Assembly (NCBI GenBank): GCA_001896725.1
Contig: MPPA01000009.1
Coordinates: 124,001-188,000, forward strand
Source of the DNA: Methanococcoides sp. EBM-47
GTDB lineage: Archaea; Halobacteriota; Methanosarcinia; Methanosarcinales; Methanosarcinaceae
Length of the DNA stretch: 64,000 nt
Direction: 5' to 3'
This document shows, one piece after another, positions 3,630-48,767 of this stretch (position 1 is the first letter of the stretch; each line of letters begins with the position of its first letter). Both the position numbers and the translations under genes were made by a program. The notes under the pieces were generated by a model. That model did not search any database. It was not told the DNA's origin and saw only the letters and a list, made by a program, of their open reading frames with translations.

Positions 3630-4991
3630 TTATATCCTTGGCCAATTCATCAGGAACGATTTGAAGTTCATGTCCTGAATACTACATATCTCACTGGTGC
3701 GAAGCAGTTCAAATCCATTTTTCACTGAGGAACTAATCTGTTTCCCCATGGAACATGATGAAAGTTTCTCTTTTAATAATGAACATGCATCTGAATACTT
3801 GCGGGGTATTTCTGCCACATAGGTACCATTTTCAATATAGAATGCAAACACATTTTCTTCATTTGTGTATTTGGCTTTGAAGCTTTCAGCATGTTGGCGG
3901 ATCCACACAGGTGGACCCCTGTGCTTTCGTAAGGCTGGAAGAGTGGCAGACATGAGTTCCAGTAATAGTATTGTTTTTTGTCCTGACCATGATCCTTTGT
4001 TTATGACCCTGAACTCATATCCTTCAAGCAATGCAACAACTGCAAGCTCCATTTTATACAGTTGTGGATAGAGAACATCCTCCACTATATCAGGTGTTTT
4101 GAATGTGATAGCAATAAATGTAGTTCCACGTGATCCAAGCTTTTGAAACAGTTCACTGTCGACTACCACTGTATCGGATTCTGGAAAGAAGAAATCCAAT
4201 CTGGGGAACAACATAAATTCTCTGCATGCATCGATGAACATACAAAATCTATCCAATGACAAGGCTGCGGCAACATTGCGTTTCGGGTCGGTTGGGTCCA
4301 CTACAACAAGTGGTTCTGCATGTTGTGCTTTGCCGTGTGAGTTGAGGTCTATATATGTTCCTGGTTGCCAGTCACAGGCAGATATGACAACATTCTCAAA
4401 ACAACCATATCTTATCACGAGCAGTTCTGTAAGATAACCTGAAAAACCTTGTGTTCTCAGTTCTGAGCCATAGACCCCTACTCCTTTCATGAACTGTTTT
4501 AACAACAACACGTCCGGTTCAAGCCCCTGGATATTCCTTTTAACAAATTCGCTATGGAAGGGTGTTCTATCTACTGCGGACCTGATGCATGCTGCGGACT
4601 GTACTCTGAAGCAGGGGACTAGGTCCACATCGAACCCCTTGTATCTCATATTTATATAAGGGTGCTCAGCATAGCGCTCTTCAAAAAACTCTGAATCTTC
4701 AGCTATCTTTCTTGCAATTGCCAAACCGTTCTTTTCAAGCTCTTCCCTGCAGGTGTTCTCAGGGAACATGATGAATATGTCCAGATCATGGGTGCCAGAT
4801 ATCCAGGTATTCCTTGCAGCTGAGCCAACAATGTTGGCATACACATCATTCAGACCCATTGAATGGGCTATGAGCTCTACTTTTTTCACAAGCAGTTCTG
4901 CTATTCCTTTTAGATATTCCCTTTCTTCGCTTTTTGGACTTATCCTTTGCAGAACGATCGTTCTCAATCCTCTAAGTGCATCGTTTTCCAT
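3630..4991 (-). CDS. cca: CCA tRNA nucleotidyltransferase (archaeal class I)
   Basis: This enzyme adds or repairs the 3' CCA of tRNAs. The class I archaeal active site is visible as GSAARNTWISGTHDLDIFIM (GSxxRxT followed by DxD), with a third acidic residue in GFDVDLVPCF. The protein continues with the head, body and tail regions usual for archaeal Cca; about 453 residues matches the family. ATG 4991 (MENDALRGLRTIV) is chosen because the family begins near here; the upstream in-frame extension to 5066 is low in family-like sequence. The tRNA-Ser in this window does not encode CCA, so it needs this enzyme. It is transcribed away from the protease gene at 5183. Confidence 0.93.
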   Translation of the reverse strand: MENDALRGLRTIVLQRISPKSEEREYLKGIAELLVKKVELIAHSMGLNDVYANIVGSAARNTWISGTHDLDIFIMFPENTCREELEKNGLAIARKIAEDSEFFEERYAEHPYINMRYKGFDVDLVPCFRVQSAACIRSAVDRTPFHSEFVKRNIQGLEPDVLLLKQFMKGVGVYGSELRTQGFSGYLTELLVIRYGCFENVVISACDWQPGTYIDLNSHGKAQHAEPLVVVDPTDPKRNVAAALSLDRFCMFIDACREFMLFPRLDFFFPESDTVVVDSELFQKLGSRGTTFIAITFKTPDIVEDVLYPQLYKMELAVVALLEGYEFRVINKGSWSGQKTILLLELMSATLPALRKHRGPPVWIRQHAESFKAKYTNEENVFAFYIENGTYVAEIPRKYSDACSLLKEKLSSCSMGKQISSSVKNGFELLRTSEICSIQDMNFKSFLMNWPRI

Positions 4992-5182: not shown

Positions 5183-8100
5183 ATGAAGAAAAATCATTTT
5201 TTACTAATGATCGTTTTTTCTTTGATGCTCACATCAAATATCGCTTTTGCTGACCAAGCGGTCCCGGTCCAGGAATCGGTTAATCCCGCTTTTATAGCAC
5301 ATTCTGCAGTACAGGCTCAAAGCATCGATCTGTTAGGCAAAGGAGAGGGAGCTACAGGTCAGTTGCCAGATACGATAGACTTCTCTTATATTGAACATCC
5401 ACCTTCCACCCTAATATTGGATACTTATGTTCCATACTATGATCTTAGGACCCAAGGAAAGGTCACCTCTGTAAAAGACCAGGGATCATGTGGTGCATGC
5501 TGGACCTTTGCATCATATGCCTCTCTTGAATCAACTCTGATGCCCGCTGAAGACCTTGACCTTTCAGAGCAGAACCTAAAGAATTTGCATGGATTCGATG
5601 TAGGCCCATGCTCTGGTGGAAATGCCCAAATGGCAGCTGCATACCTTGCCAGATGGGCCGGTCCTGTGTTAGAATCAGCGGACCCATATGACCCATCTAA
5701 TAGTACCTCCCCTTCTCCAAGGGCTGCTAAACATGTGCAGGAAGTCATTTTACTTCCGACAAGGAGGTCTTCACTGGATAATGATGCTATCAAATGGGCA
5801 ATTCAGCAATACGGAGCAGTGTATGCCTCAATGATATGGTCTGATCCATCATATAATTCTAAGAATTATTCATATTATTATACAGGTTCTTCTACCTCAG
5901 GAGGTCATGGTGTCACTATAGTGGGATGGGATGATGGTTTTGACAGTAAAAGGTTCTCTCCCGCTGCTCCTGGCAATGGAGCCTTCATAATAAAGAACAG
6001 CTGGGGGGATTCATGGGGAGAGGATGGATACTTTTATATCTCCTACTACGATTCCTGTTTTGCAAAAAGGAATGTAAATGCCGTTTTCACAGCTGAGCAG
6101 GTCAATAATTACGATAATATCTACCAATATGATCCGCTTGGATGGACAGCATCTGTTGGCTATGGGGATACAGTGGCATGGGGAGCAAATGTGTATACTG
6201 CCACATCAGATGAAGTCCTAAAAGCAGTATCATTCTATACTACCAGTTCCGGGGTCAGCTATGACGTATATATTTACACAGATATCGTTTCCGATCCCAT
6301 CGGAAATTTGAAGAGCAAAGTTTCAGGCAATTTTGCTTACCCTGGTTACCATACTGTAACCTTGAAGGATCATGTAGGCCTTACCAAAGGACAGAAGTTC
6401 TCTGTAGTGATCAGACTGACCACTTCTGGATATGGTTATCCTCTGGCTATGGAAGTTCCACTGCCTTATCTTTACAGCAGTTCTGCAACGGCAAATGCTA
6501 GGGAAAGTTACATCGGTGAAAATGGACAGGTATGGGAGGATATCACAACTGTGTTTCCTAACGCCAATCTTTGTATCAAGGCACTGACATCAGATGCTGT
6601 TCCAATGCCGGTGTTAAATACAAATACCGGCAAAACTTATTTCAATATCAGTGATGCTGTGCAGGACCCATTGACACTTCAGGGCCATACTATCCTGGTG
6701 GGTCCTGGAACATTTCAGGACAATATATGGGTAAATAAAGAGCTTACAATAAGATCGGCCACGGGTGATCCAGACGACACAGTAGTGAAAGCGCTCGATC
6801 CATCCAGACACGTTTTCTATGTGACGGCTTCCAACGTCTCGATATCGGGTTTTAATGTCACTGGTTCCCTCAATAACAAAGGCATATATCTAGACGGAGT
6901 AAAGGGATGCAGTGCTTATAACAATGTTGTTACCAATAATAACTATGGGGTATATGTCCATTCATCCATAGATGTGAATGTTACAGATAATAACGTAACA
7001 GCCAACAATGTGGGTATCCTTCTTTATGTTTCATCTAATTGTTATGTTTCAGATAATAAAATAGATGCTAATGAGGGGGCAGGTGTGTACCTGCTCAGTG
7101 CATCAGCATGTGTTGTTAACAATAATACCCTAGATTCCAATTTGCAGGGTTTAAGACTGGACGACAGTGTTGATAATTATCTTACAGCCAATAATATCAG
7201 TTCAAGTAACTATGGTATATTGCTGTTATCCTCATATCCTTTGGATGCAACTTCAGATAATACGATAAATACGATAGTGAATGGTCCAAATGCTGCCGAG
7301 CTCGAACTATTCACTGATATTACAGTAGGACCTCATCTGAGATTATTGGGAGCGGACAGGATTGCCCCCAGATTAGCTCATGGGAACGTTCTTGATGGCA
7401 ATGTGATCAGATCAAATAGATATGGTATACTGTCAAAATGCTCGAATTACAATGATATTATCAATAATACTCTGTATTCCAATGATCAGGGCATTTACTT
7501 CAGTGATTGTTATTTAAATACTGTTCAGAACAACACTCTGGACTCCAACTTGTTACAGGCTATCTACATGCTTTCATCTGATGATAATAATGTTAACAAT
7601 AACATGGTCAGACAAAATAATGTAGGCATTCGCCTGCAATCAGGTAACAGGAACATATTGGATAACAATTCAATTATATCCAATAGCTATGGTCTATTGC
7701 TGCACTCTGCCACCGGTAGTATTATTTCTGACAACAACCTATCTTCCAACAACCAAGGGATCTATCTTGTGAACTGTACTTCCAGTAGGATATTGAACAA
7801 CACTGCTTCTCTTAATGTCTATCAAGGTGTTTATATTGTAAGTTCTCATGATAATCTTGTTAAGGACAATCAATTGGTGCAAAATAAAGCAGGTATCCGT
7901 CTTGAGTCGAGCAATAATAACGTACTGGATGAAAATATTGTAAGATCGAATAGCTATGGCTTCTTGCTGCAATCAGCTGATGATAACATTATTTCCAACA
8001 ATGTTGTTTCATCCAATATCCATGGCATTTATTTTATAGACGGTTCTTTTAATGTCATTACTGCAAACACAGCAAATGACAATACTTTGCAAGGTCTTTA

Positions 8101-8839
8101 CTTGATCGATTCCCATAACAATATCATTGAGCATAACAAGGTGTTACAAAGCAAACAAGGCATTCGTCTTCAGTCCAGTGATCAAAACATTCTAGATAGC
8201 AATCACCTGCAGTCAAGTTTCTATGGCACATTATTGTTATTCAGTGATAATAATTCAATTTTAATGAATACTGCAACTGAAAATGAAATAGGTATATGTC
8301 TAAGTTTTTCAGATACTAACCTGCTGGTGGGCAACGAAGCACTTAATAGTACAAATTCCGGTATATATTTTGACTCCTCAAGCTATAATGATCTCATTTC
8401 TAATATGGTGGCATGGAACAAACATGGAATGCGCCTGCATAAAAGCAGATATAATGTACTTGAGGAAAACCGACTTGTTCATAATAAATATGGTTATCTG
8501 GCACAATCATCAGACAACAACTTGTTAAAGACCAACAATGTATCCCTGAACGAATGGTACGGTATGTATCTGCAATCATCCGGTTCCAACCTTGTATATA
8601 ACAACATGTTCAACAATACTAAGAACGTTGTTGATGATAGAACAAATACATGGAACATCATAAAGACAAAGGGTACGAACATAGCAGAAGGTCCATATAT
8701 TGGAGGTAATGTGTGGGCTTCACCCAATGGAACTGGCTTCAGCCAGACAGCCAGTGATGTTAATAGAGATGGAATATGTGATAAGCCGTACAATGTTGCA
8801 GGCAGTTCTTTTGACTACCTGCCCCTTTACTTCAGGTGA
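5183..8839 (+). CDS. Secreted C1A (papain-like) cysteine protease fused to a NosD-type beta-helix
   Basis: The predicted preprotein has 1218 residues. Start ATG 5183 follows an AGAGG ribosome binding site and gives a clean signal peptide (residues 1-23, ending AFA-DQ). A papain-like domain spans about 85-300: active-site cysteine 106 in GSCGACWTF, histidine 242 in GGHGVTIVGWDD and asparagine 272 in IIKNSWGDSWG. Residues about 310-500 resemble the lectin-like domain often attached to archaeal C1 proteases. Residues about 510-1190 are a right-handed parallel beta-helix of about 23-residue coils rich in N-N-x-G-I motifs, ending in the NosD-like DVNRDGICDKPYNVAGSSFD. It probably acts at the cell surface, the helix binding carbohydrate or S-layer. 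Both parts are intact. The substrate is unknown. Confidence 0.88.
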   Translation: MKKNHFLLMIVFSLMLTSNIAFADQAVPVQESVNPAFIAHSAVQAQSIDLLGKGEGATGQLPDTIDFSYIEHPPSTLILDTYVPYYDLRTQGKVTSVKDQGSCGACWTFASYASLESTLMPAEDLDLSEQNLKNLHGFDVGPCSGGNAQMAAAYLARWAGPVLESADPYDPSNSTSPSPRAAKHVQEVILLPTRRSSLDNDAIKWAIQQYGAVYASMIWSDPSYNSKNYSYYYTGSSTSGGHGVTIVGWDDGFDSKRFSPAAPGNGAFIIKNSWGDSWGEDGYFYISYYDSCFAKRNVNAVFTAEQVNNYDNIYQYDPLGWTASVGYGDTVAWGANVYTATSDEVLKAVSFYTTSSGVSYDVYIYTDIVSDPIGNLKSKVSGNFAYPGYHTVTLKDHVGLTKGQKFSVVIRLTTSGYGYPLAMEVPLPYLYSSSATANARESYIGENGQVWEDITTVFPNANLCIKALTSDAVPMPVLNTNTGKTYFNISDAVQDPLTLQGHTILVGPGTFQDNIWVNKELTIRSATGDPDDTVVKALDPSRHVFYVTASNVSISGFNVTGSLNNKGIYLDGVKGCSAYNNVVTNNNYGVYVHSSIDVNVTDNNVTANNVGILLYVSSNCYVSDNKIDANEGAGVYLLSASACVVNNNTLDSNLQGLRLDDSVDNYLTANNISSSNYGILLLSSYPLDATSDNTINTIVNGPNAAELELFTDITVGPHLRLLGADRIAPRLAHGNVLDGNVIRSNRYGILSKCSNYNDIINNTLYSNDQGIYFSDCYLNTVQNNTLDSNLLQAIYMLSSDDNNVNNNMVRQNNVGIRLQSGNRNILDNNSIISNSYGLLLHSATGSIISDNNLSSNNQGIYLVNCTSSRILNNTASLNVYQGVYIVSSHDNLVKDNQLVQNKAGIRLESSNNNVLDENIVRSNSYGFLLQSADDNIISNNVVSSNIHGIYFIDGSFNVITANTANDNTLQGLYLIDSHNNIIEHNKVLQSKQGIRLQSSDQNILDSNHLQSSFYGTLLLFSDNNSILMNTATENEIGICLSFSDTNLLVGNEALNSTNSGIYFDSSSYNDLISNMVAWNKHGMRLHKSRYNVLEENRLVHNKYGYLAQSSDNNLLKTNNVSLNEWYGMYLQSSGSNLVYNNMFNNTKNVVDDRTNTWNIIKTKGTNIAEGPYIGGNVWASPNGTGFSQTASDVNRDGICDKPYNVAGSSFDYLPLYFR

Positions 8840-8855
8840 TAGATAGTGATCGTAG

Positions 8856-8893
8856 AAAGAGAATATCCGTCAGAATAGTCCGATATTCTCTTT
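8856..8893. terminator. Bidirectional terminator hairpin between protease gene and proB
   Basis: AAAGAGAATATC (8856-8867) pairs perfectly with GATATTCTCTTT (8882-8893) over 12 bp with a 14-base loop, with T-runs on either side in both reading directions. It lies between two convergent genes; its right arm is inside the last codons of proB, so it can serve both transcripts. Confidence 0.75.
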
Positions 8894-9994
8894 TTTGATC
8901 ACATGGTTATAATTTTTGTATCCAAGGATATCTACTATCTGATTTGTGTGCTGTCCTTTGATCTTTAACATTTCACTTGATGAGTAATCAGTGATCCCTT
9001 TTGCAAAGACTTCTCCATTGGATTTTATTTCAAGGATATCCCCTCTTCCGAAATCACCGTCAACACTGGTTATCCCGGATGGTAAGAGGCTCATACCTCT
9101 TTTGATGGCTTCCTTTGCACCCTCGTCAACCTCCACTGAACCGCATGATCTTGACAACAAGATCCATCGTATCCGGTTCTTATGGACATCTTTGTTCGCC
9201 AAAAATAGCGTACCCATCTCCTCTCCATCCAGTAATCTGAGCAGGATATCCTTTTCTCTGCTGCTGGCAATGATCGTGTGACAGCCCGCAAAGGCACAGA
9301 TCTTGGCAGCCATTATCTTTGTTCTCATGCCACCCACACCTTTAAAACTTATCGGATTTCCGCCATAGCTCTCCACCTCAGGTGTTATCTCTTCCACAAG
9401 ATGGATCAACTTGGCACCATGATTAGTGTGTGGGTTCTTATCATAGAGCCCATCGATGTCCGAGAGAATTATCAGAAGGCCAGCTTCTGTTTTGCTGGCA
9501 ACCATGGCAGAGAGTTTGTCGTTGTCCCCAAAAGTAGCTTCTATCTCATGCACACATATAGGATCGTTCTCATTGATAATGGGGATCACACCATAACTGA
9601 GGAGGGTGTGCATGCTGTTCCTGAGATTGAGATATGTTAACCGATTTGAAAAGGATTCATATGTGAGGAGTAGCTGAGCTACCTTCAATCCATATTTACT
9701 GAAGGCTTTACTCCATTCCTGCATGAGTATGCTTTGTCCAACAGCTGCCGCAGCCTGTCTTACCGGTATTTCCCGTGGTCTGGAATCAAGATCGAGCACG
9801 TCTACTCCAAGTCCTATGGAACCTGAGCTCACTATCACTACTTTCTTTCCTGAACGATGCAATGTGGAAACCTGTGAAGCTATGGAATCCAGGAAATAAG
9901 AGCTAAGTTTACCCTCATCCTGGTTTATAGATGTAGTTCCGATTTTCACTACAATTTTGTTAATATCTCTTAAAAGCTCTTTCCTGCTGCTCAA
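8870..9994 (-). CDS. proB: Glutamate 5-kinase
   Basis: ProB phosphorylates glutamate in the first step of proline synthesis in the cytoplasm. The 374-residue protein has the amino-acid-kinase start KIVVKIGTTSI, VVIVSSGSIGLG, PIINENDPICVHEIEATFGDNDKLSA and LIILSDIDGLYDKNP, followed by a C-terminal PUA domain (DGDFGRGDILEIKSNGEVFAKGI). The chosen start at 9994 is TTG, preceded by AGAGG at a suitable distance and 19 bases after the proA stop, so proA and proB form one transcript in the order proA-proB. No proC is in the window. The bacterial-type proline pathway is patchy among archaea, so an ancient gene transfer is plausible but not shown here. Confidence 0.93.
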   Translation of the reverse strand: MSSRKELLRDINKIVVKIGTTSINQDEGKLSSYFLDSIASQVSTLHRSGKKVVIVSSGSIGLGVDVLDLDSRPREIPVRQAAAAVGQSILMQEWSKAFSKYGLKVAQLLLTYESFSNRLTYLNLRNSMHTLLSYGVIPIINENDPICVHEIEATFGDNDKLSAMVASKTEAGLLIILSDIDGLYDKNPHTNHGAKLIHLVEEITPEVESYGGNPISFKGVGGMRTKIMAAKICAFAGCHTIIASSREKDILLRLLDGEEMGTLFLANKDVHKNRIRWILLSRSCGSVEVDEGAKEAIKRGMSLLPSGITSVDGDFGRGDILEIKSNGEVFAKGITDYSSSEMLKIKGQHTNQIVDILGYKNYNHVIKKENIGLF

Positions 9995-35592: not shown

Positions 35593-36885
35593 TTAAATGC
35601 CTTTACATCTATACATAAAGCTCCTACCTCTTTCGAGCTTTTCTACATATCCCAGTTTTGCAAGATGCTGCATGTCATTTCTTGCTGTGTCATAGGCAAT
35701 GTTGTACTTTCCTTTGATCTCAGCAATGGAGAAGTATCTGTCAGGTTCTTTGAGTAGGTTCTTGAGTATGTCAGCCTGCCTGAGTTTCAGACTCTCAGAG
35801 GTTTCAATGATCTGTATCGTTTCATGCTGTTCCTGCTTTTTGAGGCTAATGTACTCCTCGAGTTCTTGCAGCGCTTTCTCTATTGCAGAGAGGTTGTAGT
35901 TTATGAAGTATGTAAGATCGTTCCCGTCGGTCTCAGTATACAGGTAGGACAGGGCATATTTTGCTTTGGAGTGCAGCAGTATCCTTGATATCGGCATGTA
36001 CTCAAAGAGCCAGTAACCCCGGCTGAGCATGTACCAATAGAAGATGGACCTTGCACACCGGCCGTTACCATCGGTGAAGGGATGGATAAAACCTATCAGG
36101 AAGTGGAGGATCACACCCTTGACAAGAGGGTGGATGAACTCTGCTTCATCGTTGCTGGCAAACCTGCAGAACTCTTCCATGAGCTGGGGGATCTTCCGAT
36201 AGTCCGAGGGGATATGGTATATTTTGTTCCCGTTCCGGGGGTCGGCCACTACTATCTCGTTGTTGTCCCTGAACTTACCTTCATCTGCGGGATCTGCCAG
36301 AGTACCGTGTGTGATCTCCCTGTGGATATCAAGCAGTGTATCCGGATCAATGGACCTGTCCTTCATTTCTGCTATCCTGCACATGGTCTGATAGCCGTTG
36401 AGGATCATCTTCTCGGAATAGTCCATGGGTTTTCGCTTCTGGCGCAGCATCTTTTTGGCTGCTTCCCTGGTGGTGGCCGCTCCTTCAAGCTGACTGGAGG
36501 CAATGGCTTCTTCCATGAGCGAGTTGATGATGTATCGCTTCCGGTCTGCTGCACTCACACCTCCGGGTCCGCTTTCCAGATTCCCGGCACCTTTTGTGTC
36601 CAGCAGGTGCAGTCTTCTCAGGGTGTCGCCTGACAGGACATACCGGAAGGTCCACTCTGCGAATTCAACGCGCTTGGCCTGCAATGCCCTTGCGCTTTTG
36701 ATCAAAGCCCACATTTGTTTAGCCTCCACAGGCAGTTTGCGGTGCCTAAGCTCTTCCCAGTGTACATACTCGCGGTTGTACTTTGCAACAAGCTCCAGCA
36801 TCTGCGGATCAACGAACATTGAGAGCATTTCAGGATCTTTCCTGATGATCTCCCATATGTCCGGTGCTTTCTGTGGGATCTTCAT
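35593..36885 (-). CDS. Fic-domain protein with winged-helix C-terminus
   Basis: Fic proteins attach AMP or similar groups to target proteins. The roughly 430-residue protein carries the class II inhibitory motif SSQLEGAATTREAAKKML ((S/T)xxxEG), the catalytic HPFTDGNGRCARSIFYW and a C-terminal winged helix (YFSIAEIKGKYNIAYDTARN). ATG 36885 (MKIPQKAPDIWE) is preferred over the TTG at 36894. Fic proteins appear as restriction-linked genes in other hsd loci; whether this one protects, regulates or is a toxin is unknown. Two inverted repeats lie over and just upstream of its start, pointing to autoregulation by its own DNA-binding domain. Confidence 0.9.
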   Translation of the reverse strand: MKIPQKAPDIWEIIRKDPEMLSMFVDPQMLELVAKYNREYVHWEELRHRKLPVEAKQMWALIKSARALQAKRVEFAEWTFRYVLSGDTLRRLHLLDTKGAGNLESGPGGVSAADRKRYIINSLMEEAIASSQLEGAATTREAAKKMLRQKRKPMDYSEKMILNGYQTMCRIAEMKDRSIDPDTLLDIHREITHGTLADPADEGKFRDNNEIVVADPRNGNKIYHIPSDYRKIPQLMEEFCRFASNDEAEFIHPLVKGVILHFLIGFIHPFTDGNGRCARSIFYWYMLSRGYWLFEYMPISRILLHSKAKYALSYLYTETDGNDLTYFINYNLSAIEKALQELEEYISLKKQEQHETIQIIETSESLKLRQADILKNLLKEPDRYFSIAEIKGKYNIAYDTARNDMQHLAKLGYVEKLERGRSFMYRCKGI

Positions 36886-36976
36886 AACTACCAATTCGTT
36901 ACTTTTTGGTAGATACTGGTAGTTATTGGGATAAAAGGATTACTACCAATCTGGGAGAGATTGGTAGATAATGGTA
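36886..36976. promoter_or_regulatory. Copies 2 and 3 of the Fic-associated inverted repeat
   Basis: Copy 2 (36886-36923) reads AACTACCAAT, nine bases, TTTGGTAGATACTGGTA and touches the fic start codon. Copy 3 (36942-36976) reads ACTACCAAT, nine bases, ATTGGTAGATAATGGTA, 55 bases further upstream. Each has an inverted half-site pair plus an additional TGGTA half-site at a fixed distance. Confidence 0.8.
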
Positions 36977-37128: not shown

Positions 37129-37740
37129 TTATAATATTCCTACAACTGCATCTCTGAAGCACTGAAAGCTGCTAGAACTATTGCTTTCCCAATCGAGAGT
37201 GCGTCCAAGCTTGCGTGCGACCTCTGTTTTGCGTAGACCACCTTCAAAGTACCCTGCACGCTTCAGTACTCTTTCAAAAGCTTCCCAAGTGCCACCGGCA
37301 ATAGCATCTGGATTTCGGAAACTTTCCTTTTTTGGAACATTAGCGCTTACTCGTGGATATAGACTCTTAACTGCATTCCAGTCTCCGAAATACCAAGATT
37401 CCAGCTCTTCTATGGCAATACGGTTCAATACCTGCCAGTTGTTTACATCATCTGATCTTGTACATAATCCACATTGATGAACCATGCTGTCTAATTGCTT
37501 TTTAAGTTCAAAGCAATCATCATCATCCCTATCTACGATCACTATAATGCGATACTCTGCTGGCAACCAAGAAGAATATCCTTTGAGCCTACTGGGTAAT
37601 TTATCTATCAGGTCATTCTTGCATTGGAAGGGATAAATTTGAAAACTCATCTCACCACCAAGCATTCTAGGAAGCAACCCACGCAGAAATGCTTCCATTG
37701 AAGGCTCCTCTACAAGAAATTCGAGATGGCTTACACTCAA
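37129..37740 (-). CDS. DUF4276 (Toprim-like) protein paired with an ATPase
   Basis: The 203-residue protein starts at TTG 37740, which overlaps the ATPase stop as TTGA and is preceded by GGGGGAG. It has [20 protein letters not shown] (a conserved acidic start), [12 protein letters not shown], which looks like the Toprim DxD, and [21 protein letters not shown]4276 proteins commonly sit next to AAA ATPases and are thought to be nucleases of the OLD/Toprim type. The pair resembles split OLD systems such as PARIS in layout, but the partner family differs, so the name is not applied. Confidence 0.75.
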
Positions 37741-39002
37741 TACTTCTCCCCCTTGCGCATGGGTGCTCCCTGATTCACTAATGGATCTCCGAAGCCGAAT
37801 CGTCCTTCCAGCCACAGATGTCCCAATGAAGCACCTGCTTCCATAAATTGGGGGATTCCTGTAATATCTGCTGCCCGGACAGCTTGAGTATATCCACGTT
37901 CATCACGATAAAGCACACGTACTTCCTCAGGTTGCAGAGCATTGACGAAAAAAGGAGAATGAGTGGTAACTAAGAACTGTCCATGTTCACTGGCTGCACG
38001 GCATTCTTCAGCTAACTCTGGCAACAAGCGGGGATGAAGGAAATTTTCAGGCTCTTCGATACCAATAAATGATGGGGGTTCGGGATCATAAAGTAGTACC
38101 AGATAAGCCAGCATCTTGAGGGTGCCATCTGAAGCAAAACGAGCTAGTACAGGATGTTCAAAAGGAGCATCTTTTATTTGTAACAGGAGGCGACCATCCT
38201 GCATAGGTTCGGCCAGCACCTTTTCTACACGAGGTACCCGTGCGCGTAACACTTCGAATATGTGCTCAAGCCATGATGGATGTTGCTCAGCTAGATATTG
38301 GATAACGTTAGCCAGATTGTCACCTGTGCGTGAAAGCCTTTCCTGTGGTCCTGCTTCTGGTTGTCCACGGGTGTCATCAACTGAAAGGTATGAAACATGC
38401 CATCCAGTTATAAATTCACGTAGTGCAGCTACCCGTGGATGGTCTGCGAACTGACCAAGAGCATTTACTGCAACAAGGTCAGGTGATTTAAGAGGAGTTT
38501 CAACCCTCTTATCACTTTTATCCGGCAATTCCCCACTTATAGCACGACCCTGACCCTCACGATAATCAAGAAAACGGAATGGTTTTCCTTGTTTGCCACG
38601 CCGCCATTGAAGCCATTCTTCCATAACAACAGGTGAACCCTTGCGTTCATCCACAGCCAGATGATAGGTAATTACAGGAAAACCTGGTTCTCTGTATTTT
38701 ATCTCGATCACTACAGGTCCATCACAACCGCGTGTTTTGAGTTCTTTTGCCCTTCCCCGCCTATCCCAGGCACGTCGCAGACCTGATTCAAAACATTCGG
38801 AAAGAAAGGCGAAAACATCAAAAACAGTAGATTTCCCACTACCGTTCGGACCCAGGAGCACTGTCATAGGAGTCAGATTCTTAAACTCTACATGTCTCAA
38901 TGCCCTGTAATTCTCCACCCGCAAATATTCAATACGTGCCGGCTTTTTTTTATCTTTTTCCCTTAAATCGGATATTTCCGGCTTTCCTATATCTTTGCTC
39001 AT
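37737..39002 (-). CDS. AAA/ABC-type ATPase (OLD-like) of the DUF4276 pair
   Basis: The 421-residue ATPase starts [20 protein letters not shown], has Walker A in [17 protein letters not shown], a signature-like [18 protein letters not shown], Walker B in [20 protein letters not shown] and a switch histidine in [13 protein letters not shown]. This is the SMC/RecF-like architecture of OLD and PARIS ATPases that sense phage proteins or DNA ends. It is translationally coupled to the DUF4276 gene. An antiphage role is inferred from family and position in an hsd locus. Confidence 0.82.
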
Positions 39003-39409
39003 AGTGGATAGCTCCTGTTCCTTATGTCTTTTACATTATTTGACATGTAGTTCATCATAGATAAATTTAGGCAGCGGAAAGAATATGAATGGAAAAAGAG
39101 GGATGAACAAATGTGTAGTAAGCAGATTGATATCTGTTTGCTACTATACACGACGACATAAATGCTCAGCTTCTTTCACTCGCAACTCTCCAGAAATTAA
39201 CTTGGGTAGCAGCGTGTCGCGCAGTTCGGCGAGGATGCGGGATTCTACTTCGATTTCCAGATGCTTAAAGTCAATTAGCTAGACCTCAAAATCACGATCT
39301 TTTATTGGAATTAGCCAGTATAGAATAAGAATACATATCATATGACCACAAAAATATATGTACATTGCTTAGATGCTTAACAATGTTATAGTCAATAGTT
39401 CTTATTTCT
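39003..39409 (-). other. Gap between the ATPase and DUF3644 genes
   Basis: This 407-base stretch has no intact gene. It contains the hsdR/hsdS scar at 39144-39286; the remainder is AT-rich with nothing else recognised. Confidence 0.6.
39144..39286 (-). pseudogene. hsdS C-terminal fragment fused to an hsdR-like fragment
   Basis: On the minus strand this reads [25 protein letters not shown] and then a stop at 39144, nearly the same as the end of the intact HsdS ([20 protein letters not shown]). The DNA from about 39164 to 39240 matches the hsdS end at 41377-41452 closely. Just upstream, 39258-39286 resembles a piece of hsdR near 35039-35069 (LIDFKHLEI compared with LIDFEHPEM). The junction of two unrelated hsd pieces marks a past rearrangement. 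Confidence 0.7.
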
Positions 39410-40393
39410 TTAACTATATTTTTCAGCATTCATGCGACAATGCTCTCGCACTTCATCTAACCAGCGTTCATACCAATGCCACGTCTTACCAGCAACTAAT
39501 GTTCCATATCCTTTCCCAGAATTCTTAGCATCCAAAGATTGCCAAAGCTGAGTGTGATTATACATAGTGAACTTTAGATAACCTTCATTTTTCATCAGTT
39601 CAACAATCTGTTTAGGTAGATACTTGTTCCTTTCAGTTTCTTTAATGACTACATAATCTTTATTCACTGCTTCAGCTAATGGTGAGTCGCTTTTAACAAA
39701 TTCAATAACCCTATCTGCTTGCCCTTTACTATTAGCTGTCTTAAGAATAAACAAAATACGATATGCATATCGTTGACTTCCAAATTCTTCATCCGTTAGT
39801 TTGTAATCAAAATCTTTGATAAAACTTTGAATATGCGCAGGAAGGTCATGATGCTCTTCGAGCATTTTCTTTTGCTCAGTGTTAATAGTAGAGAATTGAA
39901 GACTAAATGAGAGATGCTGTTCTATTCCCATACTTGGATCAAATAATTTCTTGATATAATCATTGTAATTTAGACAGCAGGCCTGAAATTTGGCACTTAG
40001 GATGTCATCAATTCTTGTAGTCATCTGATGCTCAATTTCATGTCGTAAACCAATTAAGAAACGTAAATTATTTGCAGCATCTTTATCAATAGGACAGTTT
40101 TTTTCATTTAGGCAACGCTCAAGTTCCCAGTATTTAAAAGCACCATGTTTTGTCTTGTCGAATGTCCTTTTTTTCCCGTTTTGTGTGAAATATCTGTATT
40201 CAATTTTATTACTTCGATAGTAGGCGTGAAGAAGGTAAGTCCATGCAATAATCATCAGTACAACATATGTTTCAGACTTAAAAGTGATATTAGGATTATT
40301 AAAAATTTGTACAGCCGCAAGTGCAGCCTCTCTGGATTTTTTGACAAGCTCAGATTTGACAGAACCAATGCGTCTGTTTCGTTGTTTAGTCAT
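39410..40393 (-). CDS. DUF3644 protein
   Basis: The 327-residue protein has the DUF3644 N-terminus: LVKKSREAALAAVQIFNNPN, then TYVVLMIIAWTYLLHAYY and a helical region with LIGLRHEIEHQM. The C-terminus, from residue 240 or so, resembles a winged-helix module in NKYLPKQIVELMKNEGYLKF. DUF3644 has no proven activity but is often found in defence islands. The start overlaps the upstream nuclease gene by ATGA, so the two products are probably made together. Confidence 0.75.
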   Translation of the reverse strand: MTKQRNRRIGSVKSELVKKSREAALAAVQIFNNPNITFKSETYVVLMIIAWTYLLHAYYRSNKIEYRYFTQNGKKRTFDKTKHGAFKYWELERCLNEKNCPIDKDAANNLRFLIGLRHEIEHQMTTRIDDILSAKFQACCLNYNDYIKKLFDPSMGIEQHLSFSLQFSTINTEQKKMLEEHHDLPAHIQSFIKDFDYKLTDEEFGSQRYAYRILFILKTANSKGQADRVIEFVKSDSPLAEAVNKDYVVIKETERNKYLPKQIVELMKNEGYLKFTMYNHTQLWQSLDAKNSGKGYGTLVAGKTWHWYERWLDEVREHCRMNAEKYS

Positions 40394-41354
40394 ATCAAAA
40401 CCTCTAAATACGGCTTGCGATCAATGACTGCCGCATTAACTTTTGTCCGAAGAAACTCTAAAAAATTACCTTCTTTCTCAAGCAAAAGCACTATTTCTTT
40501 TAAAGTACAAAGAACAACTACTTTTTGTTGTAGTGAATCCTTACAGGTAGACACTGCCGGGCTTGTAAATTTAGATGCCGATATAATAATAGCACGACTT
40601 TCTGCGCGATGGTATACGCGTAGAAGGTGTTGAGAAATTTCAGGAACACCAATTGGACTGTCCCACCATTTCATTTCAACAAAATAGAGATGACTATCAA
40701 CTTCAATAACACCGTCAATTTGCTCTATAATTCCTTCTCCATCATCACCTGTAAGTGTAAAAGCTTCGCGAATTAGGATTCCATAGGCAAGAAATAGCGA
40801 ATTCAAGATACTTTCTAGCTTTTTGCCTCGCTTTTGTTTATCCTTTTCAGAGAACAGAGAGAATAATTCACCTTTTAATTTTTCAATATTCTCTTTCTTT
40901 TTGCGCACTTTTTCAATTTCAGCATGTTTCCTAGCTAAATTATCTCTTTTTTCGGATTCGCGTTCATTTGTCATTCGAGTAAAGCTGTCTTTTACATTCA
41001 CTAAATTCCTTATTTCTGCAACTAATCCTTTTGCTGTTAATTGATCATCCGGCCAGCATGAAGAAAAAGACTCAAATTCAACTACCCTTTTCAAAACTTC
41101 CCTGCGCTCTCTTAAATATTTGTCTCCACTTTCATTCATTTTGGTTAAAATTTGCCGAGTGATTTCAAATTTGTTGATGTTATCTTTGTTTTGCTTCCAT
41201 TGCTCAAATGGAGTCTGCATTAAACTTAAAGGCACCCCTGCACCTTGAAAAAACAGAAATACGTCTTTTTTGCTTTTGTTTAGGCGCGGAATAGTATTGA
41301 TGAGAAGGTTCATCAAATCAGGTGGATAGTGAAAAATATTATCCATTTTCATGT

Positions 41355-41361
<7 letters not shown>
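40390..41361 (-). CDS. PD-(D/E)XK restriction endonuclease-like (Mrr-cat type) protein
   Basis: The 323-residue protein has a nuclease domain at its C-terminus: E183 in KLESILNSLF, D216 in EQIDGVIEVD, and E229 and K231 in YFVEMKWW, the E-D-ExK pattern of Mrr-like enzymes. The preceding residues 125-180 form a charged coiled coil and residues 8-60 (HYPPDLMNLLINTIPRL) a small helical domain of unknown type. It starts within the end of hsdS (seven-base overlap) and overlaps the DUF3644 gene. A DNA-cleaving role, perhaps dependent on DUF3644, is inferred. Confidence 0.78.
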
Positions 41362-42582
<1,221 letters not shown>

Positions 42583-42590
<8 letters not shown>

Positions 42591-42924
42591 CCCTACTCAC
42601 CTCCACCTTCAATTCTCCCAGTTCCTTTTCAAGTTCTTCGATGGTGGGGAGGCTGTCTTTAAGATCATCGGGCAGATAAGGACACTTTACACCAGAAAGT
42701 GTGACAGTATTATAATTCAAGAATAATTGTCCAGCAGGCTGTTGGACTATTGGCTCATGCGAAGAAAAAGCAGGTGATTCAGCACAGGAAAACTTAAAGG
42801 GAGCACAACATTCCTTGAGCCTTTGCGGCTTTGCGCCTTTGCGTTTATTTCTCTTAAATACACTTTTTACCAATGTACTCAGCCTTCCTTTTTCATTTTC
42901 CATGTGTATATCAATTCTGACCAT
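42583..42924 (-). other. Doubtful 113-residue frame upstream of hsdS with TTTGCG repeats
   Basis: The frame overlaps hsdS by eight bases. Its last 30 residues (LPDDLKDSLPTIEELEKELG) are hydrophilic and charged and could belong to a small real protein. The first half translates a degenerate tandem repeat, CCTTTGCG/GCTTTGCG (42817-42846), a kind of low-complexity sequence that commonly produces spurious KGAKPQR-like peptides. Either it is an eroded gene or only a leader for hsdS. Confidence 0.35.
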
Positions 42925-43000: not shown

Positions 43001-44449
43001 TCATTTACCGGAGATTACTTCCCAGTGTCCGCCCTTTGCCGGACCTATGCGCCTGAGCAGACCTTTTTCTTTCAATATGGAGATATTGGTCTCTACCTTT
43101 CTTTGGGAAATGCCAATGGCCTCTGATATCATTCTGGCAGAAATATGCGGGTCTGTCAGTATCAGATCAAGTATCTTTTGCTGGTTTGGATTGAGATTTT
43201 CTCCGACCCTATCTCCGACCTTTTCTCCGACCCTATCTCCGACCTTGTCCTGTAAATTGTCATCATTTGCCTTTTTGGTTTCTTCGGGTTCATACCGTCT
43301 GAAGGTCACGATGAACTGTGTACCCACTTCTTCAAAGCTGGTCTGAGGTTCTGCAGCCAATATCCTGCGGATGCCTGCACCCCACTTCTCTATAAGTCCT
43401 GCTTCGTGGAAAATATCCGCGATAAGTTCATTGCGCCGCTCGGAAAACATGCCCGACCTGATCATTTCCACAGACAGCCCTCCATAGAGGCGGCCCTTGT
43501 TCCTGATCTCCACCCGGTTCCTGAAGACCGCCACATTCACCGAATCATACTCGAAATAATCACGGTGGCAAAACGCATTGATAATTCCCTCCCTCAGCGC
43601 ATCCCTGTCGATCTCCGGCACATCGACACGCTTCAGTCCTTCAAGCCGCATGCCCACATGGATATTCGCAAGCACATACTTCTCAGCCTGCGCTATCAGA
43701 TAGAAAATATCCCCGAAATGGTCCTGCATGTCAAGGATAAGGGAGGTATCCTCCCTTGCAAAAGTGGCACACCTCAACCTTGCATTCGGGAAAAAGTCTT
43801 CCGGCCTCTCACCAAAGAGAATGACAGCAGCGTTGGTAGGCTTGCCACCACAAAGCAATTTCAGCTTATCCATGGACTTCTGAAGATCGCCGTCATGCGG
43901 TCTTCCTGCGCTTTTAAGGAACGCAATGAACTTCTCCTCGCTGATATCATCAAGTGTGGCATTCCTACACACCTCAGTATCCCAGCGCAGCCTCTCCCGG
44001 TTCTTGCAAAGGATCATACTCTCAAGCTCATGGATGCTCAGGCGCCGGTCCTCGTCCGCAACCCGCACATAAGCCCGGCCATATGCAAAATAAGGCACAT
44101 TGCTGCCTGCAAACTCCACAAGAATACACTTCTTGCCTCTGATATCCACCTGATAGATAAAAGGATGAATAGAAGGCTCTATGCCCTCCGATATAGCCCT
44201 TGATATATCCCTCAGGGTCTTCCTGCCAGGCTCCTGTCCCAGAACCGTGCCATCGTCCTTCACGCCAAAATAAAGCTCTCCCTCATGATGCTTGTTCAGC
44301 ATAGCAACAATGGATATGACAGCCTCCTTTAGCTCCGAAGTAGACCTTTTCAGTTCAACTGTTTCACTTTCCTTAAGCGGAAGCTCATAATCCAGTTTCT
44401 TCTCACGTATAACAAAATCAGAGGAATCAGTCATGACACTACTTTCCAT
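43001..44449 (-). CDS. AlbA_2/RecG-like DNA-binding protein with winged helix
   Basis: The 482-residue protein starts with an AlbA_2 (Schlafen-type) domain: ESETVELKRSTSELKEAVIS with GELYFGVKDDGTVLGQEPGR. Then comes the GHKL-like C-terminal region of this family (LREGIINAFCHRDYFEYDS, EIRNKGRLYGGL, IEKWGAGIRRI), a repetitive linker and a winged helix (ISARMISEAIGISQRKVETN). Such proteins are called RecG-like or Schlafen-like transcription regulators and are common beside type I loci. The linker holds four 12-bp DNA units (43199-43246, VGDRVGEKVGDRVGEN). Confidence 0.82.
   Translation of the reverse strand: MESSVMTDSSDFVIREKKLDYELPLKESETVELKRSTSELKEAVISIVAMLNKHHEGELYFGVKDDGTVLGQEPGRKTLRDISRAISEGIEPSIHPFIYQVDIRGKKCILVEFAGSNVPYFAYGRAYVRVADEDRRLSIHELESMILCKNRERLRWDTEVCRNATLDDISEEKFIAFLKSAGRPHDGDLQKSMDKLKLLCGGKPTNAAVILFGERPEDFFPNARLRCATFAREDTSLILDMQDHFGDIFYLIAQAEKYVLANIHVGMRLEGLKRVDVPEIDRDALREGIINAFCHRDYFEYDSVNVAVFRNRVEIRNKGRLYGGLSVEMIRSGMFSERRNELIADIFHEAGLIEKWGAGIRRILAAEPQTSFEEVGTQFIVTFRRYEPEETKKANDDNLQDKVGDRVGEKVGDRVGENLNPNQQKILDLILTDPHISARMISEAIGISQRKVETNISILKEKGLLRRIGPAKGGHWEVISGK
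43199..43246 (-). repeat. 12-bp tandem repeat in the AlbA_2 protein linker
   Basis: Four in-frame units of TTCTCCGACCCT/ATCTCCGACCTT encode the linker VGDRVGEKVGDRVGEN. Units are multiples of three, so copy changes alter only linker length. Confidence 0.85.
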
Positions 44450-44542: not shown

Positions 44543-45469
44543 TCATTTATTCTTCCGGTCACAACCCCTTATAAGTTTTTTAATTTTTATCTCCAGCGAC
44601 TTTTTTTCCTGCTCCTGTGCTCCTTCAAGTAGTTCCACTTTGGAAAGAGCTTTGGCCAGATAACTTTTAGCAATGTTTGGGTCCTCGTCCATAAAAAAGA
44701 TAGCAACATGCAAGTATAGTTCCGGATCATCACCGAACTTTTTGCTGACCCTCTTTGCCAGGATCTTCATGAGTTCAAGTTCTCTCCGTTCTTTAAGTTC
44801 CAGAAGATAAACTGCGAACAGGTCAAAGTGTTCCGGGCTGTTCTCCGCCAGGAAATTGAGTTTCTCATCAGCATCCATTGCGAAGAACTCACTTTGAAGC
44901 CGTGTTTTTTCTATTTCATCTTCAGTGAACTCTCTTTCACCCCTCATAAGAAGCTGGTCCACATCTTCATCTGAAAGGTGCATTTTTTTGCCAAGCTTTT
45001 CCATGCGCTCTTCATATTGTTTTTCTTCCTTGGCTGTGTAAACTCCCAAAAAATAGCATATCCACTTTATATACGCCTGTTTGTCTCCCATCCACGATCT
45101 GTTGTCAATGGACCACAGAATATAGTCAATGACCAGTTTGAATTCATGGAAGGTGATCGGTTTTTTTTCAAGCGCATCCACCAGAGGCCCAAGCATCAAA
45201 ATTTCAAAAGGGTGAGAGAAATAACTGACATCCTTGTCAAGGTTCATTTTGATATCCCTTAAAATAGAGATTATTTCCTTGTCAGTGATCGTATTGTCGT
45301 GCTCATGATAATAAAGCGCGATACCTCCCTCAATGGTTCCTAAATGCTCGCTATATTCGGCTTCGTTGTCCTGAAGACTTCTTATCTGTTTAACTTCCGG
45401 TGTATCCGGCTTAAGAAAATCGCTCAACGATACCCCAGCTTTCAAATGATCAGTGTCATTAGAGCTCAT
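44543..45469 (-). CDS. Uncharacterised protein co-transcribed with hsdM
   Basis: I do not recognise this 308-residue protein. It is acidic and largely helical, has no signal peptide or membrane segment and is rich in charged repeats ([20 protein letters not shown]). The C-terminal third ([20 protein letters not shown], then [19 protein letters not shown]) looks like tetratricopeptide-type helices. ATG 45469 overlaps the hsdM stop by 11 bases, so translation is coupled to the methylase. That coupling suggests a role in the restriction system, for example as an assembly or control factor; this is inference. Confidence 0.7.
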
Positions 45470-47471: not shown

Positions 47472-47615
47472 ATTCTAAGCAAAGGAACATTAACTTAAAG
47501 TTGAAGATATAATTTTAAGTAAAGAAACCTTAATTTAAAATGAAGACTAGATTTTAAGTAAAGGATGCTAAACTTAAACTGCGTAACTGAACTCTTAGTA
47601 AAGGATCGTTGTCTT
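47472..47615 (+). repeat. Four tandem ~40-bp repeats in the fic promoter region
   Basis: Units begin at 47472, 47512, 47551 and 47591 (periods 40, 39, 40). The unit starts ATTTTAAGTAAAGGA, with the inner box TTAACTTAAA in the first three copies, and runs up to the ATG at 47616. Regular spacing of nearly four helical turns puts all copies on one face of the DNA, as expected for cooperative operators. Confidence 0.75.
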
Positions 47616-48767
47616 ATGAATGAAAGAGCCGGAAAATTTGTTTTGACACCTGAAGGTTACAGATCCTTCATACCTAAAGAGTTGCCACCAGAGCCTCCTA
47701 TCGAATATGATGATGAGCTACATTTGTTGCTTTCAAAGGCCGACAGGGATCTTGCCAGGTTGGATGGGATCACCTCTGTTCTACCAAACCCGGACCTTTT
47801 CATTGCAATGTATGTTAAGAAAGAAGCTCTTTTGAGTTCACAGATCGAGGGCACGCAGGCATCCCTTGAAGGAGTTCTGGAATTTGAAGCGGACCTTGTA
47901 CCAAAAGAAGATATCAGCGAAGTAAAAGAAGTCGTAAATTACATCAAAGCCTTAAACTATGGAATTGAAAGACTGGTCGAAACTTCGATGTCCCTGGCCC
48001 TCTTAAAAGAAATTCATAAGACCTTGCTGGAGGGAACAAGAGGAGATGGACTGAATTCCGGAAATTTCAAAGTTCTTCAGAATTATATAGGTACACCAGG
48101 CGCTTCAATAAGAGAAGCGATATTTGTACCACCTACACCGGCTATAACCATACCTGCAATGCAAGCATTGGAAAGGTTCCTGAACGAAAAGGACAACATT
48201 CCGGTGCTTATCAAGATAGGATTGATACATGCCCAGTTCGAAACCATACATCCCTTCCTTGATGGTAACGGCAGGATGGGACGACTTATCATCACCTTCT
48301 ATCTTGTCTGGAAAGAAATACTACCAAAGCCGCTTCTGTACCTGAGCTTTTACCTGAAGAACAATAGAAGCGAGTATTATGATCTGCTTATGAAAGTACG
48401 TACGGAAGGCGCGTGGGAAGATTGGCTCAAGTTCTTCCTCAAGGGTGTTAGTGAAACCTCCCAGGAAGCGGTTAACACCGCAGGAGAGATCATAAAATTA
48501 AAGGACGATATGACAAATAAGGTCTATGAGAACTCTATCTCAAGCATTCACGCCATACGATTGATAAACTTGCTGTTCGACAGTCCACTTATCAGCAGCA
48601 AGGACATTGCCAGCAGATTGAACATATCGTCCGTCACCGCAAATAGCCTTGTGACTAGATTTGAGGAAATAGGTATTCTGCATGAAGTGACTGGTAAAAA
48701 AAGATATAAGATGTATCTTTTCAAGGAATACGTTGACATAATAAGTAGAGGTACGAATATCATTTAG
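47616..48767 (+). CDS. Second Fic-domain protein (class II, winged helix)
   Basis: The roughly 383-residue protein has the inhibitory SSQIEGTQASLEGVLEFE near the N-terminus, the catalytic HPFLDGNGRMGRLIITFYL, and a C-terminal winged helix (ISSKDIASRLNISSVTANSL). ATG 47616 (MNERAGKFVLTPEGYRSF) is preferred to 47565, which lies in the repeat array. It is transcribed away from hsdM and shares only family likeness with the Fic at 35.6 kb. Fic/winged-helix proteins of this type can control their own expression. Its targets are unknown. Confidence 0.9.
   Translation: MNERAGKFVLTPEGYRSFIPKELPPEPPIEYDDELHLLLSKADRDLARLDGITSVLPNPDLFIAMYVKKEALLSSQIEGTQASLEGVLEFEADLVPKEDISEVKEVVNYIKALNYGIERLVETSMSLALLKEIHKTLLEGTRGDGLNSGNFKVLQNYIGTPGASIREAIFVPPTPAITIPAMQALERFLNEKDNIPVLIKIGLIHAQFETIHPFLDGNGRMGRLIITFYLVWKEILPKPLLYLSFYLKNNRSEYYDLLMKVRTEGAWEDWLKFFLKGVSETSQEAVNTAGEIIKLKDDMTNKVYENSISSIHAIRLINLLFDSPLISSKDIASRLNISSVTANSLVTRFEEIGILHEVTGKKRYKMYLFKEYVDIISRGTNII

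Follow-up and report, generated by a model that had tools for sequence, protein, structure and literature searches.

Type I restriction-modification locus of Methanococcoides sp. EBM-47

Genes encoding an Mrr-type nuclease and a DUF3644 protein are located behind hsdS in a type I restriction-modification (R-M) locus of Methanococcoides sp. EBM-47, and the question raised by this locus is whether the two proteins act as partners of each other and of the type I system or as separate effectors. The analysed stretch of DNA (the window) comprises 64,000 nt of contig MPPA01000009.1 (positions 124,001-188,000, forward strand), and all coordinates given for this locus are those of the window. A preliminary description of the DNA had proposed that expression of the nuclease is tied to the specificity subunit by overlapping codons, and that DUF3644 holds or guides the nuclease.

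The genes are organized on the minus strand in the order hsdM, a gene encoding a 308-aa protein, a Schlafen-HATPase-winged helix gene, a 113-aa ORF, hsdS, the nuclease gene, the DUF3644 gene, a scar of an hsdS 3' end, HEC-01A/B, a Fic gene and an intact hsdR (Table 1). By its gene content, the locus is a type I R-M locus carrying many candidate effectors. Two Fic genes are found around the effector-rich part, one inside the locus and one (47565-48767) divergently oriented just upstream of hsdM.

Table 1. Features of the type I R-M locus in the window.
Feature	Position	Strand	Remarks
hsdM, type I methyltransferase, 544 aa	45459..47093	-	
308-aa protein, no family match	44543..45469	-	overlaps hsdM end
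Schlafen AlbA_2 + HATPase_c_4 + winged helix protein	43001..44449	-	
113-aa ORF, no family match	42583..42924	-	overlaps hsdS start
hsdS, type I specificity subunit, 411 aa	41355..42590	-	
Current hsdS 3' end	41374..41455	-	a copy recurs downstream of the cassette
Cassette block: last ~110 bp of hsdS + nuclease + DUF3644	39403..41464	-	aligned with 6930-8992 of L002
Mrr_cat PD-(D/E)XK nuclease gene	40390..41352	-	conserved start MKMDNIF, 320 aa; upstream ATG at 41361 gives 323 aa
Mrr_cat catalytic domain	40489..40827	-	residues 179-291 of the 323-aa ORF; E183, D216, E229, K231
DUF3644 (PF12358) protein, 327 aa	39410..40393	-	HEPN-type predicted RNase; PADLOC PDC-S19
HEPN Rx4H motif R117-HEIE-H122 of the DUF3644 protein	40028..40045	-	
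hsdS-tail scar	39164..39285	-	encodes 23 residues (not shown)
AAA_21 ATPase, PADLOC HEC-01A	37737..39002	-	
DUF4276 protein, PADLOC HEC-01B	37129..37815	-	
Fic-domain protein	35593..36894	-	
hsdR, type I restriction subunit, 1051 aa	32235..35390	-	

Active site and start codon of the nuclease

The assignment of the gene at 40390-41361 (minus strand) to the Mrr-type nucleases was confirmed by a PF04471 match above the cut-off (E = 1.3e-8). The four catalytic residues named in the preliminary description are present and are invariant in an alignment of eight family members, down to 22% identity. With the catalytic E, D and ExK in place, the protein belongs to the Mrr_cat group of PD-(D/E)XK nucleases. 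A model of the nuclease built from three sequences (pTM 0.42, low confidence) shows the expected succession of helices and strands, in which D and ExK occupy neighbouring strands of the series. The catalytic geometry is intact both in the sequence and in this low-confidence model, so that the loss of geometry which the preliminary description had named as a refutation was not observed. Residues 1-170 form, in the same low-confidence model, a helical module with a long coiled-coil-like helix. A sequence search of the PDB identified no relative of the nuclease, and none of the DUF3644 protein.

The nuclease could be a type IV-like (modification-dependent) endonuclease that works on its own and is merely carried along in the locus. 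It would then cleave phage DNA whose modifications let it escape the type I enzyme, and the adjacent DUF3644 would be an unrelated HEPN effector. The modification-dependent enzyme MspJI was the top structural match of the low-confidence model (E = 4.6e-3, prob 0.93-0.97), and the PADLOC profile mREase_IV matched the nuclease (E = 3.8e-6). The score of this profile match is weak, however, and no modified-base reader was matched by the N-terminal helical module in the searches run.

The overlap of the nuclease and DUF3644 genes is real: it consists of a 4-nt ATGA in which the DUF3644 start lies inside the nuclease stop, and the same overlap is found in Methanosarcinaceae archaeon UBA470 (L002), the closest relative. 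For the junction of hsdS and the nuclease gene, tight packing was found in both loci, but the 7-nt overlap in the window requires the ATG at 41361, which is not conserved. The start that is conserved in UBA470 corresponds to window position 41352, 2 nt past the hsdS stop. In UBA470 an in-frame stop rules out the upstream nuclease start, and hsdS and the nuclease gene genuinely overlap by ATGA. The window differs by one G-to-T change, which places its hsdS stop 6 nt earlier. Given the conserved start and the exclusion of an upstream start in UBA470, the codon overlap at the hsdS end of the window is probably an artefact of start choice.

The DUF3644 protein is a predicted HEPN RNase

The view that no activity is known for DUF3644 is outdated in so far as the prediction of a HEPN RNase dates from 2013, when Anantharaman et al. 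described DUF3644 as a new HEPN domain (PMC3710099); a measured activity for DUF3644 was not found in the literature. The window protein matches PF12358 (E = 1.2e-59) and PADLOC PDC-S19 (E = 1.8e-169), and R117 and H122 of the Rx4-6H motif are invariant in 74 sequences. The top PDB matches of an AlphaFold2 model of the protein (mean pLDDT 74.9) are HEPN proteins, namely 2hsb (prob 0.97), MntA-HepT and ST0689, with a TM-score to the target of 0.59 and a weak E of 0.15.

PrrC, an anticodon nuclease encoded in the EcoprrI type IC locus as a guardian of R-M, is a HEPN RNase that has been proposed as a second line of defence (PMC3710099, PMC12707154). The window shows the same embedding of a (predicted) HEPN RNase gene in a type I hsd locus. 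It differs from EcoprrI in that profile searches found no ATPase domain in the DUF3644 protein, which therefore lacks the ABC-ATPase-HEPN fusion of PrrC/RloC, and in that a DNase gene is also inserted. A second related group is the EC042_2821 family, which overlaps DUF3644 (PDC-S19) and has members fused to REase domains and found in R-M operons (PMC3710099). The window protein shares with it family membership, the R-M operon context and the reported association of HEPN with REase, whereas the REase of the window is of the Mrr_cat type and encoded by a separate gene.

A set of 80 DUF3644 loci from GTDB genomes was surveyed. At least 39 of these are type I loci, a lower bound because 24 of the 80 received neither a type I nor a BREX label with the profiles used; another 11 are BREX loci. 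DUF3644 is located directly behind hsdS in 29 loci, in 24 of them within a range from a 15-nt overlap to an 11-nt gap, and 16 have the gene order hsdS-DUF3644-hsdR. The PrrC-like arrangement of a HEPN gene embedded in an hsd operon is therefore present in the window and in 29 of the 80 loci. This recurrence directly behind hsdS indicates that the coupling noticed in the preliminary description is general for DUF3644 and hsdS, with the nuclease as a guest.

The BREX-embedded DUF3644 proteins (L003-L006, L009, L012-L015, L029 and L044) are 63-78% identical to that of the window. In L006 (3-13397), BrxC, PglX, PglZ and BrxL were confirmed, and DUF3644 lies between pglX and pglZ. A 431-aa protein without PADLOC match adjoins DUF3644 in this locus, its gene overlapping both pglX and the DUF3644 gene. 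Effectors of the PD-(D/E)XK, HEPN and Schlafen types embedded in BREX and BREX-related loci have been described (PMC12839542). The window resembles these loci in carrying PD-(D/E)XK, HEPN and Schlafen-HATPase-winged helix genes inside a modification-based system, and DUF3644 itself occurs in both settings; it differs in having type I R-M as the host system and in the copies of the hsdS 3' end that delimit the cargo. Positions behind hsdS and within BREX are typical places for back-up effectors (PMC12839542, PMC3710099, PMC12707154), which counts in favour of an effector role. A separate HEPN effector is a better explanation of DUF3644 than a holder or guide of the nuclease.

Co-occurrence of the nuclease and DUF3644

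If DUF3644 held or guided the nuclease, forming a dedicated complex with it, the two would be expected to recur together, and the preliminary description had itself named co-occurrence as the check. No nuclease homologue of any kind was found in 78 of the 80 DUF3644 loci. Among the 80, the nuclease is present only in UBA470, and the remaining locus, from Hydrogenimonas (L033), carries a short, different Mrr_cat-like ORF (3635-4030, 131 aa) which is distantly similar to the window nuclease and lies 88 bp upstream of DUF3644. In 238 genomes of the class, the nuclease was found in 14 and DUF3644 in 10; both occur together in only two, which belong to the genus of the window and carry the same cassette. 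The two families thus overlap in 2 of 14 nuclease genomes and in one genus, and in all other archaeal and bacterial contexts examined the nuclease occurs without DUF3644. Guidance of the nuclease by DUF3644 as a general rule was rejected on these counts, and the proposal is unsupported. A dedicated complex is nevertheless suggested by the ATGA overlap in both the window and UBA470, by the joint movement of the pair as one block, by the HEPN-REase fusions known in the EC042_2821 family and by the Hydrogenimonas arrangement. Weighing both sides, we consider such a complex improbable, and a fixed complex in this one genus possible.

The nuclease in other genomes

The nuclease of UBA470, adjacent to DUF3644, is 89% identical to that of the window. 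The closest bacterial relatives (51-52% identical), from Azotobacter, Klebsiella and Citrobacter plasmids, a viral contig and L165, are located directly before LmuA-LmuC-LmuB (Lamassu/ABC-3C). Among the E. coli matches, an annotated ABC-three component gene is next in all 30 listed of 36. The viral copy, Lamassu-linked, was the only one obtained from viral contigs with the family alignment; the window nuclease alone gave no match in viral contigs, and no relative was found in phage records. The similarity to the nucleases of the Lamassu/ABC-3C operons of Enterobacteriaceae and Azotobacter spans the entire protein, N-terminal helical module included, and there too the nuclease gene overlaps its downstream neighbour by 4 nt. 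The downstream partner in the window is DUF3644, however, and no Lamassu genes were found adjoining. LmuC was not matched among the window proteins scanned, and the locus does not qualify as Lamassu; the AAA protein has HEC-01A as its best match and, within its best 25, no LmuB except distant PtuA/AriA-type ATPases.

In Lamassu operons (L108-L110, L114, L115 and L165), LmuA regularly follows another Mrr-type nuclease gene that stands alone, and LmuA of these operons itself shows a weak Mrr_cat match plus CTD6. These Lamassu systems may therefore consist of four genes, two of which encode nucleases.

In other methanogens the nuclease gene is solitary amid housekeeping genes and broken in some. 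Since the gene is solitary in most archaea, the nuclease need not depend on R-M at all; an obligate tie to hsdS was rejected, as solitary and Lamassu-linked copies exist. Solitary copies in methanogens would suit the type IV-like enzyme introduced above. In close bacterial relatives of the window nuclease, on the other hand, the gene always opens a Lamassu operon (among the E. coli matches listed, all), which suggests an effector under the control of a sensor rather than a stand-alone enzyme. Together with the weak profile score, this makes an autonomous modification-dependent role rather unlikely.

One archaeal locus (L132) has the independent arrangement hsdM-hsdS-nuclease-hsdR without DUF3644, with overlaps of 10 nt at hsdS and 4 nt at hsdR. 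This arrangement and the tight packing in the window and UBA470 make co-expression of the nuclease with HsdS plausible, which is the part of the proposed tie to the specificity subunit that holds. The overlapping codons of L132 would also fit a nuclease that extends the type I enzyme itself and cuts DNA together with HsdS/HsdM, either in place of the usual cutting subunit or in addition to it. With an intact hsdR in the window, and close relatives that are solitary or beside Lamassu genes with no hsdS, we regard this as very unlikely.

A shared cassette in a proposed hsdS-tail slot

Window positions 39403-41464 and positions 6930-8992 of the UBA470 locus share 90.6% DNA identity over 2,063 bp (a 2.06-kb block). 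The genomic background of the two species, where measured, shares 82-85% identity. The flanking type I proteins are far less similar (hsdM 57%, hsdS 42%, hsdR 51% identity), and at both edges of the cassette it takes only some 60-120 bp for identity to drop from about 0.9 to 0.3-0.5. Third-position mismatches amount to 11.5% in the nuclease gene and 21.6% in the DUF3644 gene, compared to 56-62% in the hsd genes. As the cassette is far more similar than the hsd genes around it, the two type I systems are different ones between which the cassette has been shared. The nuclease and DUF3644 genes form a movable cassette in a type I locus and are probably back-up antiviral weapons.

In the window, the cassette is bordered by hsdS on one side and, on the other, by the scar (82-122 bp) that an earlier hsdS 3' end has left. 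The scar behind DUF3644 is 82% identical to the hsdS 3' end of the window over 82 bp (67 of 82 positions, compared to a best of 38 in 500 shuffles). An island from another genus of the family (L179) contains the same type I system (hsdR-Fic block 84.5% and hsdM 86% DNA identity), and the window scar is 82% identical over 122 bp to its positional equivalent there. Between hsdS and the scar, the sister island carries a different cargo, a 501-aa deaminase-HATPase (6638-8143) in which a cytidine-deaminase-type domain is fused to HATPase_c_4. HEC-01A/B, located between the scar and the Fic block in the window, are absent from this island and were found elsewhere outside type I loci.

Scars of hsdS tails were also found beside DUF3644 in L051, L063, L073 and L079; a 17-nt tail repeat in L060 was discarded as chance. 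Judging by these four cases and the scars of the window and L179, all in cargo-bearing loci, the hsdS-tail slot seems to be occupied by defence genes that can replace one another. Second hsdS genes, or hsdS shuffling unrelated to cargo, are other possible sources of a repeated hsdS tail. We infer that recombination within the conserved parts of hsdS swaps the cargo jointly with the hsdS end, whichever way each event went. More tentatively, type I loci could have a dedicated slot at the hsdS 3' end, in which recombination in the conserved tail would introduce another back-up effector along with another specificity end and leave the old tail as a scar, such that specificity and suicide weapon would be swapped in one step.

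A proposed role as exchangeable back-up effectors

Taken together, we consider it fairly probable that the nuclease, as a DNase, and the DUF3644 protein, as a HEPN RNase, are separate back-up effectors carried as exchangeable cargo in the hsdS 3'-end slot. In the mechanism that we propose, translation of both genes would follow that of hsdS, and both proteins would be latent while the R-M complex is intact. Inhibition or evasion of the complex by a phage or plasmid would allow them to act: the DUF3644 RNase would presumably halt translation in the manner of PrrC, and the nuclease would cut DNA. New cargo would arrive with a new hsdS end through recombination in conserved hsdS regions, and the old tail would stay behind as a scar.

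The proposed slot for exchangeable cargo behind hsdS is a more interesting feature than the pairing of the nuclease with DUF3644, and suggests how R-M loci swap back-up weapons. One nuclease lineage appears to serve in three settings: within Lamassu operons, within type I loci and as a solitary gene. For DUF3644 (PDC-S19), a widespread family of defence candidates, a role follows that can be put to the test, namely that of a HEPN RNase backing up type I R-M and BREX systems. Embedded effectors would be traceable by a simple signature in the sequence, the scar of an hsdS 3' end.
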